A DNA stretch of 25,712 bases from a virus. Under the pieces are notes generated by a model. It was not told the DNA's origin. It searched no databases and was given only the letters and a program-made list of their open reading frames with translations. This document shows positions 2,135 through 23,303 of this stretch, piece after piece (position 1 is the first letter of the stretch; every line of letters begins with the position of its first letter). Made by a program: the position numbers and the translations under genes. The stretch covers positions 1 to 25,712 of the IMG/VR virus record IMGVR_UViG_3300009151_006187. One strand, given 5' to 3'.

Positions 2135-2458
2135 TCAATAGTCGGGCTTAACACTTTCTATAATATTGCCCGTTAGCAATTTGAATAACATTTCAAACTC
2201 TGCCGTTACAAACTCGATATCAACAGGTTTATTCTCTATAACTTGATTGTGTACATTCTTAACAAATCGCAGTTTATAGTTGCCTATGCCAATGTGTTCT
2301 GCAAGAAATGCCACAAGGTGTGTACATGTACTATGGTACTGTTGATTGGTAATTGTAATTGTATGCGGACCTTTAGATGCGACGATCTGCTGAGTGGATC
2401 TGCGAGTTGGTGCATTGTTATATACTGCGGTCTGGTAGGTGGTATAAGTTTTAGTCAT
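2135..2458 (-). CDS. hypothetical protein, 107 residues
   Basis: The ATG at 2458 overlaps the stop of the CCA-adding enzyme gene by ATGA, so the two are probably translationally coupled. The product is a small mixed alpha/beta protein with a His- and Thr-rich middle (TNQQYHSTCTHLVAFL) and an acidic C-terminal helix (EFEMLFKLLTGNIIESV). No motif is recognised. Its position behind the tRNA nucleotidyltransferase is the only hint about its job. Confidence 0.6.
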   Translation of the reverse strand: MTKTYTTYQTAVYNNAPTRRSTQQIVASKGPHTITITNQQYHSTCTHLVAFLAEHIGIGNYKLRFVKNVHNQVIENKPVDIEFVTAEFEMLFKLLTGNIIESVKPDY

Positions 2459-3627
2459 ACCACCACCAGGGCCATCAGTTCTTCTTTAGTAGCAACATAG
2501 CCACTGTCTGCCCAAGCATCTTTCAGCTGTCGCAGAACGTCCCCCATTGCTTTACCTTGCTTCATACCAACCGCAAACAGATCTTCCCCCGTTACCGGGA
2601 ACGGATCAAATTCCCAATGCACAAGAGCATTTTGGCTCCATTCATCGCGTTTTTCAAATGCAGCAAGTTCTGCAACCCATTTACGAGGTGCACCATCTAC
2701 TGCAATCAGACGACGCAGATCGTGTCGTTTAGCATATGGTCCTTTGATATGATTACACAGCCACAGTGCATGGTCACGTTCACTACTGCTCCATTTCAAA
2801 TTAGCCGATGCCTTTTCAACAACAGTGTGGCGGAGATTCATCCATGCTGCCATTACAACTTCGGGATCTTGCGACCATTGCAGCAGTTCATTGATAAGGT
2901 CTGGCATATCCGGCGCACGTACAGCACCTTCAATTGAAATGTATGGCCACATGCCAATGTCAGACATCACACGAAATAGTGCAGAACCGCGAGGATGAAT
3001 AATGATACGTTTCAGTTCGCTCCATACACGCTCGCGACTGATTTTTTCCAGTCCTTCGAAGTTGTCCAAGATAGCTTGCCATGCAGCAGGATCAATGTTA
3101 TCTTGCTTGCCAAATCGTGCTTGAAAACGGAACCAGCGCAGGATGCGCAGGTAGTCTTCCTTAACACGAGCATCTGCATCGCCAACAAAGCGAACAATCT
3201 GATTACGCAGATCCTCTTGTCCACCAAACGGATCAATCAGCACACCGTCAAAGGTCATTGACATGGCATTGAACGTAAAGTCTCGGCGACTCAGATCATC
3301 CATCCAATTGCGAGTGTATGCAACAGTTGCATGACGCCCATCGTGATTAGTTTCTGTACGCAGACTGGTGATTTCGTAGCCAACATGGTCAATTACAACA
3401 GTAATCGTGCCGTGTTGCAGACCAGTTTCTGCATACTTGTAGCCATTTGTTGTGTAGATTTCCAGTTGTTCAGTGGGATCTGCATCAGTGCAAAAGTCCA
3501 GATCCTTGGGATCTTCGCCTGCAACGATATCACGCACTGCACCGCCTACTAGGCGGATATCAAATCCACGAGCTTGAAAAGCTGCCCGCAGTGTACGGAG
3601 TTCTTCTGTGATATACTTGTTGAACAT
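2455..3627 (-). CDS. cca: CCA-adding enzyme / tRNA nucleotidyltransferase
   Basis: The enzyme adds or repairs the 3' CCA of tRNAs using CTP and ATP. Counting from ATG 3627 (390 residues), it has the class II nucleotidyltransferase signature: GGAVRD at 28-33, the metal-binding DLD at 42-44, and RRDFTFNAM at 114-122, which is the ERRDFTxNAM block that selects nucleotides. RILRWFRFQARFG follows at 161-173 in the neck. The length is normal for the bacterial type. The frame stays open to 3681, but translation from there would read through a 14-bp hairpin and add an unlikely tail. At 3627 there is an AGG six bases upstream. The gene lies behind the WYL_2-like gene and is coupled to the 107-residue orphan by ATGA. 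It would also mature tmRNA or host tRNAs during infection. Confidence 0.9.
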   Translation of the reverse strand: MFNKYITEELRTLRAAFQARGFDIRLVGGAVRDIVAGEDPKDLDFCTDADPTEQLEIYTTNGYKYAETGLQHGTITVVIDHVGYEITSLRTETNHDGRHATVAYTRNWMDDLSRRDFTFNAMSMTFDGVLIDPFGGQEDLRNQIVRFVGDADARVKEDYLRILRWFRFQARFGKQDNIDPAAWQAILDNFEGLEKISRERVWSELKRIIIHPRGSALFRVMSDIGMWPYISIEGAVRAPDMPDLINELLQWSQDPEVVMAAWMNLRHTVVEKASANLKWSSSERDHALWLCNHIKGPYAKRHDLRRLIAVDGAPRKWVAELAAFEKRDEWSQNALVHWEFDPFPVTGEDLFAVGMKQGKAMGDVLRQLKDAWADSGYVATKEELMALVVV

Positions 3628-3631
3628 GTGG

Positions 3632-3677
3632 CACCTGTTGCTGTTGTTTGTGCATAATAACATAACAGCAACAGGTG
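3632..3677 (-). promoter_or_regulatory. 14-bp hairpin that covers the cca ribosome binding site
   Basis: CACCTGTTGCTGTT (3677-3664 read on the minus strand) is perfectly complementary to AACAGCAACAGGTG (3645-3632), with an 18-base loop between them. The last bases of the downstream arm, AGGTG, form the only Shine-Dalgarno of cca, whose ATG begins five bases later. In RNA the stem would hide that site. No U-tract follows, so control of translation or an mRNA-processing site is more likely than simple termination. Confidence 0.6.
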
Positions 3678-3687
3678 TCAATAGGTA

Positions 3688-5400: not shown

Positions 5401-6435
5401 ATGGCGAGAAAATTTGTGTCTCGTGCAACGGCTGTACATCGTATCGCCATGCCGCCAAGAGTCGTCATACCCACCGAAGAACAAATTCAAAATAAAATAA
5501 TTGCTGCCAGTGTACAGCAAGAAGCAATAACTGCTGTTGTACCAGAGCCAGTTATAGAGCCAATAGCTGAACCGGAACCGGAACCAGTTATAGAGCCAGA
5601 GCCAATAGCTGAGCCAGAACCGGAACCAGTTATAGAACCAGAGCCAATAGCTGAGCCAGAACCGGAACCAGTTATAGAACCAGAGCCAATAGCTGAGCCA
5701 GAGCCAATAGCTGAACCGGAACCGGAACCAGTTATAGAACCAGAACCAATCGCTGAACCAGAACCTGCTGATAAAAAGTATACCATAGCAATATTGTTTA
5801 GAGGTACGATTAGAGGTGATGTGAATACTGTTATAGAATTCATACAGAACAGTATAGACGAATTAAGAGCAAATAATCACATAGTGCATGCATATCTTGC
5901 AACATGGGGAACTACACACGATCCTAAGATCAGTGCGTTACTGTCTGCTATAAAATTTGAAAACGTTATTTTACAAACTGCACCGGCATTAGAACAAATT
6001 CAAAGATTTGTTAAAAAATCTGCGATGGGATGCTATCCGATTAGTAATATGTACCGCATGTATTACCAAACAAAAACTGCGTTGGATGTAATAACAAGTG
6101 CATACAATTATGATTACATTATTCACAGTAGAACAGATGTCAAAGTAACATTTGGAGAACATCTTTCAAACTGGCTTGTAAAAGGATATTATACAAGTCC
6201 ACCAAGCGGTGCACCGTGGTTATGTGATTGGGTAGGTGCAGCAGAGTCCAAAATTATGAAAGATGCATGGGATTACGGCACACTTGAACGACTAGGGCAA
6301 CTGCTAGACGACAAACATGTACCAGAACATATATTCATAGACCTTATGTCTGCACATAGTATACAGCACAGAACTGCACCTGTCGCAAGTATCTTTCTCG
6401 ATCCACACCGAGTAGAGTCCGGCGACAGGTTATAA
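5401..6435 (+). CDS. glycosyltransferase-like protein with N-terminal Glu-Pro repeat
   Basis: The 344-residue protein has three parts. A basic N-terminus (residues 1-45) is followed by a Glu/Pro tandem repeat (about 46-123) and a globular domain from [11 protein letters not shown] (about 128) to the end. The globular part resembles WavE-like or other GT-A-type glycosyltransferases: a beta-strand start, a central [13 protein letters not shown] (around 237-250) in the place of a DxD metal site, then a [14 protein letters not shown] block. The acceptor is unknown. The repeat is a likely stiff linker that holds the enzyme away from a surface or partner. It has its own late-like motif and AGG site at ATG 5401, and its stop lies one base from the convergent topoisomerase stop. 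Having no operon partner, it looks like an inserted accessory gene. Confidence 0.62.
5569..5754 (+). repeat. 42-bp in-frame tandem repeat coding for a Glu-Pro linker
   Basis: Four near-identical 42-bp units (5569-5610, 5611-5652, 5653-5694, 5713-5754) each encode [14 protein letters not shown]. An 18-bp partial unit, EPEPIA, sits at 5695-5712. Differences are mostly silent (gag/gaa, cca/ccg), which suggests duplication by slippage or recombination with copy number free to vary. The Gly-Ser-rich reading on the opposite strand is a by-product. Confidence 0.95.
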
Positions 6436-6436
6436 A

Positions 6437-8314
6437 TTAAGTATCTAATGCAATCCACTCTTTGCGAGCATCTGCGCCTTTGGGATCAAATATCAGTTTC
6501 AATGCAGCACTGAGATTGCCGTCATCTGTTAGTGGTACCAGTTTGGGCTTAACCAAACTGTGTCGCCAATCTGCTTCTTCCAAGCTACCAAGACCTTTTG
6601 CGCGAGTTGGCTTGGGACAGTTCTTCCAATCTTTAGCATCATACAAGTGGTAGTCGTCTGCATACCAATAATAGCGTGCTTTGCCTTTCTCTTGAATAAT
6701 GAACGGCGTTTGAAACGCATAGAAGAACGGTTCCTGCTGTGCATCAAACAGCTCAGGCCAGTGTAAATAGAAGAAATTTACCAACAATGCTGTGATGTTA
6801 GCGCCGTCGGGATCTTGGTCCGCAGCTAGATATACTTTCCCGTATCTCAAGTCTTTTCGCACAGCTTTTTGCCCTAACGCACAGCCCACACTGGTCATCA
6901 AGTCCATAAGGATTTGACTATCTAACAATGTCTTGGGTGCTTCACCACGCACGTTGAGAATTTTACCACGCAGCGGCAGCGCACCGTGTATTTCAGGATC
7001 TCTAACAGCACTGACCATAGTCTTGGCACTGTCGCCTTCTGTGATAAGAAGAATACATTTTGTGCGATCCTTGCCATTTGCATCAAGCAGCTTAGGTACT
7101 TTGGTACGCATCATTTTGCGTCCAGCTTTGGCTAGCTCTGCATCGTCCTTTTTCTGTGTACGAGCAGCACAGCGAGCATAGATTTCATCAATCCATTCTT
7201 TATTCAGCTTGATGATGTTTTTGAATGTGGTATCATCATCCAGTGTTTTGCGAATATACGCATCAACACCGTCGTTAATCAGTCGTGTTTTACTTTGACT
7301 GTCAAAGTTAGGTGCATGCATCACTGTTACGTTGTAGATAAGCAAGCCATCTGCAATGTCACTGCGGTTGGGTGTAAGTCCGCGACGTTTGCTTTCACGT
7401 TCCAAGCTTTTGACTAGTCCGCTGTAAAACAGTCGCTTAAACGTATCAATATGCTGCCCGCCATTAAACGCAGGAATGTCGTTGACAGTGGTATGTAGAT
7501 ACTCGCCATCTTCTGCAAAGTTAGGTACTAGATAGTAGCTGCTGTTGAAGTTGGTGTCTTTTACGTTGATTTCAATTACACGGCGTTCATCAAAGAACGT
7601 TTTAACCACAGTGGGTTTGACATTTACTTTTTCGCTGTTGAAGTAAAACTTAATCTTGGGATGGTTTGCAGCAATTTCTGTAATGCGTGCTTTGACAAAT
7701 GCCAACGGTAAGTTGATCTTTTTGAACACGCTTTTGCTAAGCTTGAACGTTACAGTGGTTCCGCTTTTGGCTGCGCTTTTGACAATCTTGGGTTCGCGTA
7801 TATCCAGTTCGTCAAATGCAGCATTGCCTTCGTTGAAGGTCTGCTGGAATCGTTGGCCGTCTCGGATAATGTCAATGGTAAAGTATTCACTGCAACTTAC
7901 AACAGTGCTGGCGCCGATGCCGTTGGTACCACGAACTTCTTCGCGCACACCAAAGTTACGACCTGCACGGGCCTGTGTAAGTGCCAGTGTTGCTTTGTGC
8001 ATACGTTCGCTTTCATCCCAATCAATGGGAATACCGCGTCCGTCATCTGCAACTGTAAATTCCATTGTCTTGACATCGTAGCCAACATCAACTCTGCTAC
8101 CGTGACCATGTCCGATAACTTCATCTAATGCGTTGTCTAATATCTCTCGGAATGCACAATAAACAGCAGGAGTCCACGTCATCTCTACTGGCTTTAGTGC
8201 TTTACCATCCCAATTGACAATGGTTTGGGTATGAGGGCTGCGACTGCCCAAATACATTTCTGTGCGCAACCTATGGTGCTGATAGTCTGTGAGTTTTTGA
8301 ATGTTTTCTGTCAT
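6437..8314 (-). CDS. 39: DNA topoisomerase II, ATPase plus TOPRIM subunit (T4 gp39/60-like)
   Basis: The 625-residue protein is a full GyrB/ParE-type subunit. The GHKL ATPase motifs are EILDNALDE (57-65), DDGRGIP (90-96) and GTNGIGAS (129-136). The transducer QTK-like loop is QSK (340-342), with Lys342 as the gamma-phosphate contact. The TOPRIM acidic sites are TEGDSA (425-430) and DQDPDG (499-504), in place of the usual DxDxDG. In T4 this subunit is split into gp39 and gp60; here it is one chain. It partners the A-type subunit at 3939-5294 but is separated from it by the inserted plus-strand glycosyltransferase-like gene. No Shine-Dalgarno is visible, and a sigma-70-like promoter lies so close that the mRNA may be leaderless. 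It ends one base from the convergent gene. Confidence 0.94.
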   Translation of the reverse strand: MTENIQKLTDYQHHRLRTEMYLGSRSPHTQTIVNWDGKALKPVEMTWTPAVYCAFREILDNALDEVIGHGHGSRVDVGYDVKTMEFTVADDGRGIPIDWDESERMHKATLALTQARAGRNFGVREEVRGTNGIGASTVVSCSEYFTIDIIRDGQRFQQTFNEGNAAFDELDIREPKIVKSAAKSGTTVTFKLSKSVFKKINLPLAFVKARITEIAANHPKIKFYFNSEKVNVKPTVVKTFFDERRVIEINVKDTNFNSSYYLVPNFAEDGEYLHTTVNDIPAFNGGQHIDTFKRLFYSGLVKSLERESKRRGLTPNRSDIADGLLIYNVTVMHAPNFDSQSKTRLINDGVDAYIRKTLDDDTTFKNIIKLNKEWIDEIYARCAARTQKKDDAELAKAGRKMMRTKVPKLLDANGKDRTKCILLITEGDSAKTMVSAVRDPEIHGALPLRGKILNVRGEAPKTLLDSQILMDLMTSVGCALGQKAVRKDLRYGKVYLAADQDPDGANITALLVNFFYLHWPELFDAQQEPFFYAFQTPFIIQEKGKARYYWYADDYHLYDAKDWKNCPKPTRAKGLGSLEEADWRHSLVKPKLVPLTDDGNLSAALKLIFDPKGADARKEWIALDT

Positions 8315-8352: not shown

Positions 8353-8396
8353 GAGTCTGTGAAATCATATGTCTGCACCTGCTTGTAAAACAACGA

Positions 8397-8423
8397 AATC
8401 GGAATGCTGTATGCATCCCGATT
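8397..8423 (-). terminator. hairpin downstream of the tmRNA gene, terminator-like
   Basis: On the minus strand, AATCGGGATGC pairs with GCATTCCGATT (11 pairs, one G-U) around the loop ATACA, followed by TTCGTTGTTTT. The pairing is better on the minus strand than on the plus strand (G-U instead of A-C). It is a plausible, imperfect intrinsic terminator that would separate the tmRNA transcript from the topoisomerase gene. Confidence 0.55.
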
Positions 8424-8494: not shown

Positions 8495-8631
8495 TATAAT
8501 AATATATCTTGACTGTATTTGTATGTTTACTGTCTTGATTGGTAGTCTTTAGTTAGTACATGTTATCAGTATAGGTTAGTAGTAAGCGGCAGTTTGATTC
8601 TGTTTCCAAGTCCAAACTGCCAAAAACTCAT

Positions 8632-8673
8632 TTACGCTGCGAGAGCGTAAGAAGGTGCAGAATTTTCATTTGC
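8632..8673 (-). other. tmRNA tag reading frame, ANENSAPSYALAA
   Basis: The resume codon GCA (8673-8671) is preceded by TAGAT, close to the TAGTC before the E. coli resume codon. The frame reads ANENSAPSYALAA and ends in TAA. The A-N-[DE]-N start and ALAA end match tmRNA tags of alphaproteobacterial type; the terminal LAA is the signal seen by ClpXP-type proteases. Confidence 0.93.
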
Positions 8674-8758
8674 ATCTATAGTTTTCTTCGCGATAACGGT
8701 GCTTAGATCCCGGTGACTCCATCCTGCCTAGTTCGCCTGTCGATCCTATTTCGACCCC

Positions 8759-8824
8759 AGCAAAGATACAGATTTTGCCAATCATTTATTCCCTTTTTCC
8801 TCACAAAAAAAGAATCTGTATCTG
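8759..8824 (-). other. intervening segment removed from the permuted tmRNA
   Basis: These 66 bases join the CCA end of the acceptor piece to the 5' end of the coding piece. They begin and end with a perfect 11-bp inverted repeat (8813-8823 and 8764-8774, AGATACAGATT and its complement). This would stack on the acceptor stem and bring both processing sites together. The 38-base loop is A/T-rich and includes a run of seven T. Confidence 0.8.
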
Positions 8825-8891
8825 TGGTGGAGCCGTCGGGTACCGCCCCCGAGTCCAGAACGTGTTCAGTGAATATCAACATCACAAGTTA

Positions 8892-8920
8892 TTTATAGAC
8901 TACTTTGTTGATCTTGTCAA
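8892..8920 (-). promoter_or_regulatory. strong sigma-70-type promoter of the tmRNA
   Basis: TTGACA (8920-8915), a 17-base spacer and TATAAA (8897-8892) form a near-perfect housekeeping promoter with start near 8885, giving an acceptor piece of about 61 bases. The same -10 region extends to TATAAATA (8897-8890), which is also the T4 late consensus. The gene could therefore be read by host polymerase early and by the phage late sigma later. Confidence 0.75.
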
Positions 8921-8966: not shown

Positions 8967-9656
8967 ATGCATTACAAAAGTATTTTTATATCAGACTTGC
9001 ATTTGGGTACAAAGCAAGCAAAAAGCAAAAGATTGCTTACATTTTTAGATACTCATACCTGCGACAACTTATTTTTAGTAGGCGATGTCATAGATGGATG
9101 GGCATTACAGCGCAGACATTATTGGACAGACAAACAAACTGAAGTAATACGTAAAATATTAAAGATAAGCCTCACTACAACTGTGTATTATTTGCCAGGC
9201 AACCACGACGAATTCGTAAGACCATTTTTCAAATATGGATTTAACTTTGGTAGCTGCAATGTAGTTGACAATGTCGTATATCATGCCATAGATGGTAGAC
9301 GAATACTAGTAGTACACGGCGATTACTATGACATCTGGATGAAATTTCCTAAAAAACTCATTAATTTTTTGGCACGCATCGGAGACTTTATACCCATAAG
9401 TTGGATAGAGCATGCTAAAATACGTAATCAAAGTCCCTATCGATATCTACGCACAACTAGAACCGAACATCGTATAACAAAATACGCACAACATAATAAT
9501 TACGATTCTGTAATTTGTGGACACACTCATATACCAAAAATGTTGGATAACTATATGAATACCGGTGATTGGGTAGATAATTGCACTGCAATTGTGGAGA
9601 CAATTGACGGTAAGTGGGAACTGCTAACACATGTCGAAGATACTGTTAATAACTGA
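8967..9656 (+). CDS. plcP: PlcP-like metallophosphoesterase (phospholipid phospholipase C)
   Basis: The 229-residue protein has the calcineurin-type dinuclear metal sites in order: SDLHLG (D10, H12), GDVIDGW (D40), GNHDE (N79, H80), HGDYYD (H117) and GHTH (H186, H188). It ends with the MNTGDWVDNCTAIVE block typical of the COG2908 group. PlcP of that group cuts phosphatidylglycerol and phosphatidylethanolamine to diacylglycerol under phosphate starvation. The pattern fits PlcP better than LpxH, and the overlapping glycosyltransferase gene behind it is the usual PlcP partner. The frame is open upstream to 8775, but that part overlaps the tmRNA; ATG 8967 begins just before the first strand of the fold. 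ATG 8925 is a possible alternative start. No Shine-Dalgarno is seen. TTAAATAC at 8953-8960 is a weak late-like motif. Confidence 0.8.
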   Translation: MHYKSIFISDLHLGTKQAKSKRLLTFLDTHTCDNLFLVGDVIDGWALQRRHYWTDKQTEVIRKILKISLTTTVYYLPGNHDEFVRPFFKYGFNFGSCNVVDNVVYHAIDGRRILVVHGDYYDIWMKFPKKLINFLARIGDFIPISWIEHAKIRNQSPYRYLRTTRTEHRITKYAQHNNYDSVICGHTHIPKMLDNYMNTGDWVDNCTAIVETIDGKWELLTHVEDTVNN

Positions 9657-10644
9657 TGCATGGCATCCTCAAGTAAACGGTGTAGTTACTACTCTCAGTA
9701 ACTTGGTAGATCAAGCAAAAAAGAATGGTGATATCATACATGTGTTTCATCCACGTAGATGCACTTTTAGATTTCCATTACCATCATATCCCGAAATTGA
9801 AATAGCCATACCAAATATATGGTTTGTTTACAAACTTATCAAACGACAAAAATGGGATCATATACATATTGCAACACCAGAAGGCCCGTTGGGTATGGCA
9901 TTTGCCACAATGTGTAGATGGGCAAAGGTACAATTTAGTACAAGTTGTCATACTAAATTTCCAGAATTTGTCAATGCACGGTGGCCGTGGATAAAAACAA
10001 ACTGGGGCTGGCGATGGATGAAACACATCTACAGAGGTAGTACACGAATACTGACTACCACTGCTACTATGGTAACTGAACTAAAAGGACACGGGTTCAC
10101 TCAGGAAATATTTGCATGGACCAGGGGTGTAAACAGAGAAATATTCAATCCCAACAATAGAACTTCAATGATATGCGGCAAACCAGTTTTGGTATGTGTA
10201 AGCAGAATAAGTCATGAGAAGAATTTAGACGTGTTTTGTTCTCTGGTTTATAAAAATGCAACTAAAATTGTAGTAGGTGACGGCCCCTATCTAAAAGAAC
10301 TTAAATCAAAATATCCAGATGTTATTTTTGTAGGTAAAAAATCTGGTAAAGATCTTGCAGATTATTACAGGCAAGCAGATGTATTTGTATTTCCCAGTGT
10401 ATCTGATACATTTGGAGTCGTAAACATAGAAGCATTGGCATGTGGTACGCCTGTTGCTGCGTATCCTGTTACTGGACCGATTGATATAATAGAACAAGGT
10501 ATAAACGGTTATTTGGATAAAGATCTTGTTACTGCCATTGACAAATGCCTGACATTGGACAGAGCTGTTGTATACCAGAGCAGTTTAAAATGGACCTGGG
10601 AAAACTGTTATACGCAATTTAAATTTATATTGATGAAAATATAA
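9631..10644 (+). CDS. agt: GT4 glycosyltransferase, Agt-like diacylglycerol glycosyltransferase
   Basis: The 337-residue protein is a GT-B fold, retaining GT4 enzyme. The N-terminus has TDAWHPQVNGVVTTL (8-22), typical of the alpha-mannosyl/glucosyl MgtA-like group, and HTKFPEF at 107-113. The C-terminal nucleotide-sugar domain shows GVNREIF (166-172), SRISHEKN (191-198), GDGP (216-219) and SDTFGVVNIEALACGTPVAA (258-277), with Glu267 in the EX7E-type position. It starts inside plcP with a 26-base overlap. In SAR11, roseobacters and rhizobia the plcP-linked Agt glycosylates the diacylglycerol released by PlcP to make glycolipids; that function is inferred from the pairing and family. The C-terminus is short compared with cellular enzymes. 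The stop is two bases from the convergent gene. Confidence 0.8.
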   Translation: MSKILLITDAWHPQVNGVVTTLSNLVDQAKKNGDIIHVFHPRRCTFRFPLPSYPEIEIAIPNIWFVYKLIKRQKWDHIHIATPEGPLGMAFATMCRWAKVQFSTSCHTKFPEFVNARWPWIKTNWGWRWMKHIYRGSTRILTTTATMVTELKGHGFTQEIFAWTRGVNREIFNPNNRTSMICGKPVLVCVSRISHEKNLDVFCSLVYKNATKIVVGDGPYLKELKSKYPDVIFVGKKSGKDLADYYRQADVFVFPSVSDTFGVVNIEALACGTPVAAYPVTGPIDIIEQGINGYLDKDLVTAIDKCLTLDRAVVYQSSLKWTWENCYTQFKFILMKI

Positions 10645-10646
10645 AT

Positions 10647-11648
10647 TTACACGGATGTATTCTTACCTGTCGCATAATAAAACATATTATGCTGTTCTGT
10701 GACAACGTTTGTCGTCAAATAGCGTTCCATGATATTGACATAATTTTTAATTCGTTCAGCTTCTGCGTCGTCGACCAACGACGAATACCGAGTTATTAAA
10801 TCCAAATTTGTTTTGCTATAATTATATATATTATCTTTTTTTAACTTTGACAGATATCCGGTATTTGGTATTTTTAATTTAAAAAATAGATCAGTGTAAT
10901 TGATAACGGTACAGTTTCCAAAGTTTGACAAGTAATTTTTAATTTCAGATAATTGATCTAACGAAACATTTAAATCTGAGTCATAATTAAATATATCTTT
11001 TATAAAATTATTGAATATATCCTTTGTAGATACGAGATTATGTTGTTTACAATATAACAGGTAATCCCAAATTATAAACGTATGAGATAGGTCTACATTA
11101 GATTTGCAATAATCATTTACCAGTTGTGATAATATTACAATATCGTCTCCTTTTACTTTAAAATTGACAGAGAGTACTCGATCTATTAATTCAGATATAG
11201 AATTGGTATTCCATGTAGTATTAAATCTATGTTTGATTATCAACAATACTCTAATTAAATATCTGCTTTCCTCATCTGGATATATAATTACGATTTCTTT
11301 AGAACTAAAGTTAAAAACTTTTGATAATAATAATGGATAGTTATGAGTTCGTAATATACGGTTATTTTTTGAAGTATCAAATCCAATTAATGTGTCATAT
11401 ACACTATCCAAATATCCAATCATTTCGTTGGGATTTACATGATATAATTGCCTTTGGTCTAAATGATTGGATAACGAATCTGGGTGAATAAATTCATTTA
11501 ATAAATTTGTCGGATATTTGTTGTCTGCGATTTCATTGCAAATAAAATGACCGCCTGCACCAGACGGCCAACACAATGTCAAATCTACATCTATATGTAT
11601 GTGCTTGGCATCTTCAAATATACGATGCTGCGGTAATTCCAGTTTCAT
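10647..11648 (-). CDS. hypothetical protein, possibly sulfotransferase-like
   Basis: The 333-residue product is not firmly recognised. Its N-terminal WPSGAGGHFI (27-36) follows a beta-strand (HIHIDVDLTL) and could be the phosphate-binding loop of a sulfotransferase or other P-loop enzyme. RTHNYPLL and an IVIIYPDEESRYLIRVLLI segment would then be the next strands, and NYTDLFFKL lies near the C-terminus. The rest is rich in Asn, Asp, Ser and Ile. The gene is clearly more AT-rich than its operon neighbours, which suggests separate acquisition. Its ATG overlaps the stop of the Zn-ribbon gene by four bases (ATGA). If it is a sulfotransferase it would use PAPS to modify a glycan, lipid or protein, but this is speculative. 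Confidence 0.6.
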   Translation of the reverse strand: MKLELPQHRIFEDAKHIHIDVDLTLCWPSGAGGHFICNEIADNKYPTNLLNEFIHPDSLSNHLDQRQLYHVNPNEMIGYLDSVYDTLIGFDTSKNNRILRTHNYPLLLSKVFNFSSKEIVIIYPDEESRYLIRVLLIIKHRFNTTWNTNSISELIDRVLSVNFKVKGDDIVILSQLVNDYCKSNVDLSHTFIIWDYLLYCKQHNLVSTKDIFNNFIKDIFNYDSDLNVSLDQLSEIKNYLSNFGNCTVINYTDLFFKLKIPNTGYLSKLKKDNIYNYSKTNLDLITRYSSLVDDAEAERIKNYVNIMERYLTTNVVTEQHNMFYYATGKNTSV

Positions 11649-21839: not shown

Positions 21840-23303
21840 TTATCCCAACCATGAATCATTTGGCAATGATCCTTCTAATTTTTTATCGTAGTTTTTCAAT
21901 GCTTTTTCTGTCAACCACGACTGTACATCTATATTCTGTAGTTCTTTAATGAGACTGTTGACTTCTTTAATTCGGCGTATACGGGTATTGAGATCATTAT
22001 CTCGGTATTTCCAGTCTATATTGCTATGGTAGTACTCTAATTCATCTTCAATCAGTGGGAATAGCGGCTGACTGCGATGCAACATTAGCGTATTGCCAAA
22101 ACTGAACCTTGTGTTTTTTTGCCAGCCCAGTTTGAAAATATGCCTGATACAAGCTAGAGTATGCTGATGGTCAGCTTCTGTTTCAGTGGGATACCCTACA
22201 ATCATCAACAACACATGCGGTATATCATAGTTGTTTAGCATCGCCAAACAATGCCACATGTCATCGTCGGTGAACTTTTTACCCATGTGGTATCGTATAT
22301 CCTGACTGAAACTTTCCAGTCCGATTTCAAGCATGGAGCAGCCACTGGCTTTCATGCTTTGATAATCTTCCTCGGGGCTTTGATGTTTAGGACGTATGAT
22401 CCATTGACTTACCCAACTGAAATCACTATTGGTTTGTCTATAGTTGATCAACGACTTCATTAAATTTCTAAATGCTTTCATGCTGCCGTTAATCAAGCTG
22501 TCTGTGAACAGGAATGTTTTTCTGTCGTATTTTTCTTTTATCTCGATAATTTCTTGTGCAATGTATTCACCATCTCTGAAATAATAGTCAGGCCATATCC
22601 TGTATACATTGCAAAATGTACAACGTTTAACACAGCCTCTACTGCCTGTAATATATACAGGATGCGGATGACCTTCATTTTGATATTCAGACCAATCTAT
22701 ATCATCATAGTTTGGTATCATGACACTGTTGAGGTCAGTGACTTGGTTGGGATCTAATGAGTTGATACCTTTACCAGTAAAGTTGCCTTTTAAGTAATCG
22801 ATAATGCTGGCTTCACCGTCGCCGTAAATGTAATCATCACAGTAGCCCAGTTCTTGAAACACATGTATACCGTATTCAATGGCTGCGCCGCCCCATAGTA
22901 TTCGTATGTGAGGACAATGAATTTTAAGCAGCACTCCCAGTTTGGCTGCAACTGCCACGCTGTGTGCAGACAACAAACTCATACCAATGATACGGGGATT
23001 TTTTTGTTTTATAAACTCAATCCAGTCTAAGAACACATACTCCAGTGTGTTGTAGAATTTGACAAAGTCCGGATGTAGCTCTGGATGATCATGTTCCAAT
23101 GCAAAAATGTAATCATCTTCAAAATAGTAATTTTGTAAATTGTGTTGTTTTGCTGCATTGAACAGCTTCACATTGAAGTCTACAACTTCGCAGGTCATGC
23201 CGTGGGCTTCGATATGCGATTTTAACACTGCTGGACCAACTGTGGGTGCATCGGGATTTATCTTTGGGATAATGCCTATCAGTATATCTAGCTGTGCGGT
23301 CAT
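21840..23303 (-). CDS. B12-binding-type radical SAM protein
   Basis: The 487-residue protein has an N-terminal Rossmann-like, cobalamin-type domain (about 1-175: LIGIIPKINPDAPTVGPAVL, then IIGMSLLSAHS and ILWGGAAIEYG). A radical SAM core follows from about 215. The 4Fe-4S site is Cys224, Cys228 and Cys231 in SRGCVKRCTFCNV, followed by the core strands LFTDSLINGS, GCSMLEIGLES and HVLLMIVGYPTETE. The DxHxxG cobalamin-lower-ligand motif is not seen, as in many members. Such enzymes methylate or rearrange unreactive carbon, but the substrate cannot be read here. A promoter with perfect TATAAT precedes it, with no clear Shine-Dalgarno. It is an unusual phage enzyme and likely host-derived. Confidence 0.85.
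   Translation of the reverse strand: MTAQLDILIGIIPKINPDAPTVGPAVLKSHIEAHGMTCEVVDFNVKLFNAAKQHNLQNYYFEDDYIFALEHDHPELHPDFVKFYNTLEYVFLDWIEFIKQKNPRIIGMSLLSAHSVAVAAKLGVLLKIHCPHIRILWGGAAIEYGIHVFQELGYCDDYIYGDGEASIIDYLKGNFTGKGINSLDPNQVTDLNSVMIPNYDDIDWSEYQNEGHPHPVYITGSRGCVKRCTFCNVYRIWPDYYFRDGEYIAQEIIEIKEKYDRKTFLFTDSLINGSMKAFRNLMKSLINYRQTNSDFSWVSQWIIRPKHQSPEEDYQSMKASGCSMLEIGLESFSQDIRYHMGKKFTDDDMWHCLAMLNNYDIPHVLLMIVGYPTETEADHQHTLACIRHIFKLGWQKNTRFSFGNTLMLHRSQPLFPLIEDELEYYHSNIDWKYRDNDLNTRIRRIKEVNSLIKELQNIDVQSWLTEKALKNYDKKLEGSLPNDSWLG

Follow-up and report, generated by a model that had tools for sequence, protein, structure and literature searches.

Two-piece tmRNAs are already known from phages: the OM43 phage Melnitz carries one, and two-piece forms account for 53 of 133 unique phage tmRNA structures (PMC9004378). 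Both tmRNA and SmpB have been reported from huge phages generally (PMC7162821), and a tmRNA has been published for the jumbo phage AP-J-162 (PMC11242549). The stretch of viral DNA analysed here (25,712 nt, IMG/VR record IMGVR_UViG_3300009151_006187; hereafter the window) carries on its minus strand, at 8885–8588, a complete circularly permuted tmRNA gene according to both Rfam and ARAGORN. An earlier note on this DNA had called a permuted tmRNA notable in a T4-like genome; given Melnitz (PMC9004378) and the roseophages DSS3P8 and MAL1, such an arrangement is not new, and what the locus adds, at the level of sequence, is conservation, a promoter and covariation within one jumbo lineage together with the co-occurrence of ClpX/ClpP.

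Melnitz and related T4-like marine phages share with the window a permuted tmRNA of alphaproteobacterial type, located downstream of an early (sigma-70) promoter in a genome of the T4 superfamily. The window differs from Melnitz in belonging to a jumbo lineage, in having topoisomerase instead of a transcription coactivator as the neighbour, and in that no glutamine riboswitch was found, the tmRNA being the only Rfam match. In roseophage DSS3P8, 39 letters comprising GGAC, the T-arm, the acceptor strands and CCA are identical to those of the window, but in DSS3P8 and DSS3_MAL1, phages of 146–150 kb, the gene lies among tRNA genes, the tags end in IAA, and the upstream region is without the clade promoter described below. 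The rhizobial jumbo phages AP-J-162 and Phosso belong to the same wider lineage; each has Clp homologues and a single tmRNA. The tmRNA of Phosso is an unannotated permuted one (L215/L293, PV764938.1 349553–350242, tag ANDNVSTKVALAA), which, in contrast to that of the window, lies about 28 kb from the topoisomerase gene; since its Rfam match spans 690 nt, its intervening sequence (IVS) is much longer.

Anatomy, promoter and conservation of the tmRNA gene

The Rfam model alpha_tmRNA (RF01849) matched 8924–8588 (−) over its full length with 120.4 bits (E = 1.2e-32), and tmRNA_permuted (RF04321) likewise matched 8886–8632 (−) with 111.3 bits (E = 3e-21), both above the curated cut-offs of 50 and 47 bits, respectively. 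These E values, together with the independent call by ARAGORN of a permuted tmRNA with the tag ANENSAPSYALAA, rule out a chance match. The 3′ half precedes the 5′ half with the IVS between them, which is the permuted order. The earlier note had placed a permuted two-piece tmRNA at 8588–8885, with an encoded CCA, a 7-pair acceptor helix including G3-U, the T-loop GGCGGTA and a tag frame, and had proposed to run the alpha-tmRNA model and ARAGORN on the minus strand; these searches scored highly with the pieces arranged as described, and every element was found at the position given (Table 1). Its span of 8588–8885 also fits the predicted mature RNA better than the 8541–8918 of ARAGORN.

Table 1 Features of the tmRNA locus in the window
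Feature	Position	Strand	Basis
−35 element TTGACA	8915..8920	−	Sequence; conserved in clade upstreams
−10 element TATAAA, inside TATAAATA (8890–8897); 17 nt from −35	8892..8897	−	Sequence, clade comparison
Acceptor piece of mature tmRNA (P2 5′ strands, T-arm, acceptor 3′ strand, encoded CCA)	8825..8885	−	RF01849, RF04321
P2 5′ strand	from 8885	−	Start of acceptor half
T-stem/loop TCGGG/GGCGGTA/CCCGA	8836..8852	−	Rfam; compensatory changes in 4 of 5 stem pairs among relatives
Acceptor stem 3′ strand CGGCTCC, holding U70 of G3-U70	8829..8835	−	G3-U70 invariant in 15 distinct phage sequences
Discriminator A and encoded CCA	8825..8828	−	Rfam alignment
IVS, 66 nt, predicted to be removed on maturation	8759..8824	−	Same anatomy in related phages and bacterial genes
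Coding piece of mature tmRNA	8588..8758	−	Rfam, ARAGORN
Acceptor stem 5′ strand GGGGTCG	8752..8758	−	Pairing with 3′ strand, covariation
D-like loop AAATAGGATCGA	8740..8751	−	Rfam alignment
P2 3′ strands, after D-like loop	8739–8734, 8717–8713	−	Rfam alignment
Tag frame ANENSAPSYALAA and TAA stop	8632..8673	−	ARAGORN; tags of relatives
3′ hairpin GGCAGTTTG..CAAACTGCC, loop CTTGGAAACAGAA	8588..8621	−	Rfam; compensatory G-C to T-A versus L188
Terminator-like hairpin and T-rich tail, between tmRNA and topoisomerase gene	8387..8423	−	3 such sites in region versus 0.4 expected
DNA topoisomerase II large subunit, conserved neighbour of tmRNA	6437..8314	−	PHROG 543, E 3.8e-159; synteny

The seven pairs of the acceptor helix include G3-U70 and a U5-G68 wobble, and the helix is lengthened by pairing of the IVS ends (AGATACAGATT / AATCTGTATCT), as in related phages and bacterial genes; because bacterial genes also have an IVS hairpin, it was rejected as an unusual trait. 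The tag frame ANENSAPSYALAA* ends in an AA signal of the ClpXP type. The folding energy of the whole RNA is unremarkable (z only −1.9) and was dropped as support, the case for a tmRNA being made by the model match and covariation, not by stability.

Covariation was assessed in 15 distinct tRNA-like domains of the lineage. Pairing itself was used in part to find the acceptor strands, which biases the set towards paired cells, although GAC, CCA and the D-loop served as anchors for the motifs; the set excludes sequences whose T-stem has 6 bp or whose acceptor is mismatched. In this set, the 12 pairs of the acceptor and T-stem are standard in all 180 of 180 cells, 8 of the 12 show compensatory changes, and both partners differ in 41 cells, a number that is 11.4 in shuffles and does not exceed 9 with the partner slid. 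G3-U70, the alanine identity pair, is invariant throughout. On this comparative evidence the tRNA-like domain (7-bp acceptor, G3-U70, T-arm and CCA) is under selection; the mismatched acceptor stem of the relatives L199/L200 possibly represents decay. The 21 distinct phage tags all end in AA, 15 of them in LAA, and 18 start with ANDN or ANEN, their mean length being 14.2 aa versus 12.3 aa for bacterial tags. The tmRNA gene is real and, in our judgement, very probably functional, a member of an already known kind.

The arrangement TTGACA-17-TATAAA predicts a start at about 8885, where the outer P2 helix begins. TTGAC-N15–18 followed by a −10-like box is present in 18 of 20 distinct upstream regions of the lineage, against 0.03 expected in shuffles, a ratio that is somewhat flattering because the −10 alternatives were picked after viewing the sequences; a comparable search of bacterial tmRNA upstreams found the arrangement in 1 of 49. 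A T4 late promoter was considered and rejected, as TATAAATA is well placed but occurs as a single copy in the window despite the tail genes, with 2.1 copies expected by chance. This lone TATAAATA and the TTGACA lying 15–18 nt upstream in most relatives are better explained by a promoter of the sigma-70 type, which, as predicted, is readable by host RNA polymerase and ends just before the predicted 5′ end of the tmRNA; late use of TATAAATA alongside it may also occur.

Lineage of the phage and origin of the gene

Besides tail genes, the window encodes both subunits of topoisomerase II, NrdA/NrdB, an exonuclease and a CCA-adding enzyme. In 50,697 phage records, the closest counterparts of its topoisomerase large subunit are those of Phosso (55%) and Atu_ph07 (53%), the next listed isolates being at about 45%. 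Both of these nearest isolates are rhizobial, Phosso being a Sinorhizobium phage of 469 kb and Atu_ph07 an Agrobacterium phage of 490 kb. A viral contig of 518 kb (G023) contains 14 genes of the window in order, with a topoisomerase 92% identical. Synteny with this contig and the affinity of the topoisomerase therefore identify the window as a probable fragment of a jumbo phage of about 0.5 Mb in the Phosso/Atu_ph07 lineage of the T4 superfamily, the size being estimated from relatives, since the record itself is 25.7 kb; its host, judged likewise from the relatives, probably belongs to the Alphaproteobacteria. The genome had been described earlier as T4-like, which is correct as to the superfamily, whereas the topoisomerase and the 518-kb contig assign it to the Phosso/Atu_ph07 jumbo lineage and not to ordinary T4-like phages.

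A permuted tmRNA over the cut-off was detected in 35 of 45 searched records encoding the topoisomerase or a relative (window included), in most cases upstream of the topoisomerase gene at a distance of some hundreds to some thousands of bases; in the 518-kb relative it stands beside the topoisomerase genes, with the gene order of the window. The other ten related contigs, some of them fragments, have no tmRNA over the cut-off. Atu_ph07 (490 kb, described as complete) likewise gave no tmRNA match over the cut-off, so that the gene is dispensable. The permuted tmRNA is a stable, selected part of one giant-phage lineage and not a stray host gene. Related sequences are now numerous enough to ask what phages gain from ribosome rescue, and the rhizobial isolates with (Phosso) and without (Atu_ph07) the gene make the benefit to the phage testable.

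The tmRNAs of the Caulobacter type in RF01849 share with the window gene the permuted order, the GGCGGTA T-loop, the encoded CCA, the paired IVS ends, a GGGGNCG acceptor with G3-U70 and an AND/EN..AA tag, and the 3′ element, CTTGGAAACAGAA here, resembles the RF01849 consensus CCUGGCAACAGAA. In contrast to the bacterial members, the window gene has a conserved promoter specific to the phages and a tag with ANEN instead of ANDN, and lies in a phage genome in which no SmpB was found; it also scores lower, at 120 bits, whereas in 105 of 114 sampled alphaproteobacterial genomes with a tmRNA over the cut-off the best (main) tmRNA scores 143–313 bits. A tree of 73 tmRNAs unites the window with L188 and L189 (support 100/100); in it, the 21 rows of the lineage fall on one side of a weakly supported branch (20/39), and a supported branch (95/93) sets apart phage Bajun and 46 of the 48 bacterial rows. 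A single origin of the tmRNAs of the lineage is not proven by the 20/39 branch. Of the capture from an alphaproteobacterium proposed in the earlier note, the alphaproteobacterial type of the RNA is borne out, but a recent capture from the host is rejected by the synteny within the lineage, the score below those of the sampled Alphaproteobacteria, and the tree. The evidence is most simply read as showing that the gene was acquired long ago from an alphaproteobacterium and was then inherited vertically by the phages, some of which, for example Atu_ph07, lost it. An exact 32-base match of the T-arm, tried for tracing the donor genus, was uninformative, as it is found in seven scattered Alphaproteobacteria. 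One alphaproteobacterial genome (G143) has, in addition to a normal tmRNA, a second, diverged permuted one (L292, contig 5, 72.8 bits), which is possibly of phage origin.

Proposed role and rival explanations

We assign a probability of about 0.85 to the reading that the window carries a working ssrA gene of an alphaproteobacterial jumbo phage, serving ordinary ribosome rescue in infection. In the predicted pathway, host RNA polymerase would produce one precursor from about 8885 to about 8390, from which host tRNA-processing enzymes would excise the IVS, its paired ends extending the acceptor helix, and the two resulting pieces would be held together by acceptor and P2 pairing. Host AlaRS would charge the G3-U70 acceptor, host SmpB would deliver the phage tmRNA to stalled ribosomes, and the ribosome would append ANENSAPSYALAA and stop at TAA, the LAA end routing the tagged product to ClpXP. 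The phage would likely benefit because ribosomes are recycled and truncated proteins removed at a time when mRNAs are being cut in the infected cell; phage-encoded ClpX and ClpP, which are present in the nearest large relative, may contribute. The RNA itself has all the parts that the pathway requires, and host SmpB, AlaRS and processing enzymes are presumed to serve it; SmpB was not found in the 40 related records searched, and host SmpB must therefore accept a tmRNA of 120 bits, against 143–313 for host tmRNAs.

ClpX is encoded in 11 of 22 related records and ClpP in 4 of 22, both being present in the 518-kb contig, and their motifs look intact. The lineage might accordingly possess a tag-and-destroy system of its own, in which the phage tmRNA would mark unfinished host and viral proteins for degradation by phage ClpX/ClpP, with only SmpB and ribosomes coming from the host, a proposal that we regard as tentative and rather doubtful. 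It is unlikely that the phage RNA acts by interference, that is, by competing for SmpB, AlaRS or EF-Tu or by retargeting tagging for the virus, instead of adding rescue. A tmRNA from mycobacteriophage DS6A that has no tag frame is reported to inhibit the endogenous tmRNA in E. coli (cited in PMC11915505), and the longer average tags of the phages and the divergence of their RNA from host tmRNAs would suit such a role; however, the tag frame, its AND/EN start and its AA end are kept across the clade, none of which a decoy needs, making interference a weaker rival than ordinary ribosome rescue.

The latter reading also has to be weighed against a non-functional relic or passenger, left for example by integration or transduction. 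Although prophages integrate into ssrA and can carry fragments of it (PMC9004378), and some relatives are without the gene, the gene in the window has intact pairs, its CCA and an uninterrupted tag frame free of early stop codons, and the compensatory substitutions and conserved promoter extend over long divergence, so that a relic is very improbable. That assembly joined phage to bacterial DNA close to the tmRNA, a chimera envisaged in the earlier note, might be suspected from the neighbouring genes at 8973–11648, which the 518-kb relative does not have and two of which resemble a bacterial gene pair. Such a chimera is contradicted by two separate IMG/VR assemblies of the same phage (L121, L169), which continue from the upstream genes across the tmRNA into the topoisomerase gene with 100% identical proteins, and by the presence of the tmRNA in the 518-kb relative, and can be given practically no weight.

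Neighbouring genes and variant tmRNAs

A calcineurin-like phosphoesterase (8973–9656, +) and a GT4 glycosyltransferase (9631–10644, +) overlap by 26 bases, and a relative of the glycosyltransferase lies beside each of the phosphoesterase's ten best alphaproteobacterial matches. By these matches, the pair at 8973–10644 resembles plcP-agt, with which phosphorus-starved bacteria remodel their lipids (PMC4796936); the only viral contigs found to carry it are those of the same phage, and it is absent from the 518-kb relative. Also absent from that relative is a protein with a long repeat encoded between both topoisomerase genes (5401–6435, +), and a B12-binding radical SAM protein (21840–23303, −) was not found at the same place in it.

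In three relatives (L188, L190 and L191; tmRNA about 1500–1900), the flanks and coding part are nearly identical to those of the window, and the T-arm, acceptor, IVS and D-like loop have been exchanged as one block, the T-loop now being the canonical TTCGAAT and the D-loop altered; this replacement probably reflects recombination between tmRNAs. Two others (L205 and L273) have a tmRNA without an encoded CCA, AGAA following the acceptor, and an IVS of 3 nt; a CCA-adding enzyme is encoded by the lineage (2455–3681 in the window). In L193–L195, L197, L198, L202, L275 and L276, the IVS has only 2–5 nt and the halves nearly touch, and some bacterial tmRNA genes likewise have a short IVS of 2–6 nt.
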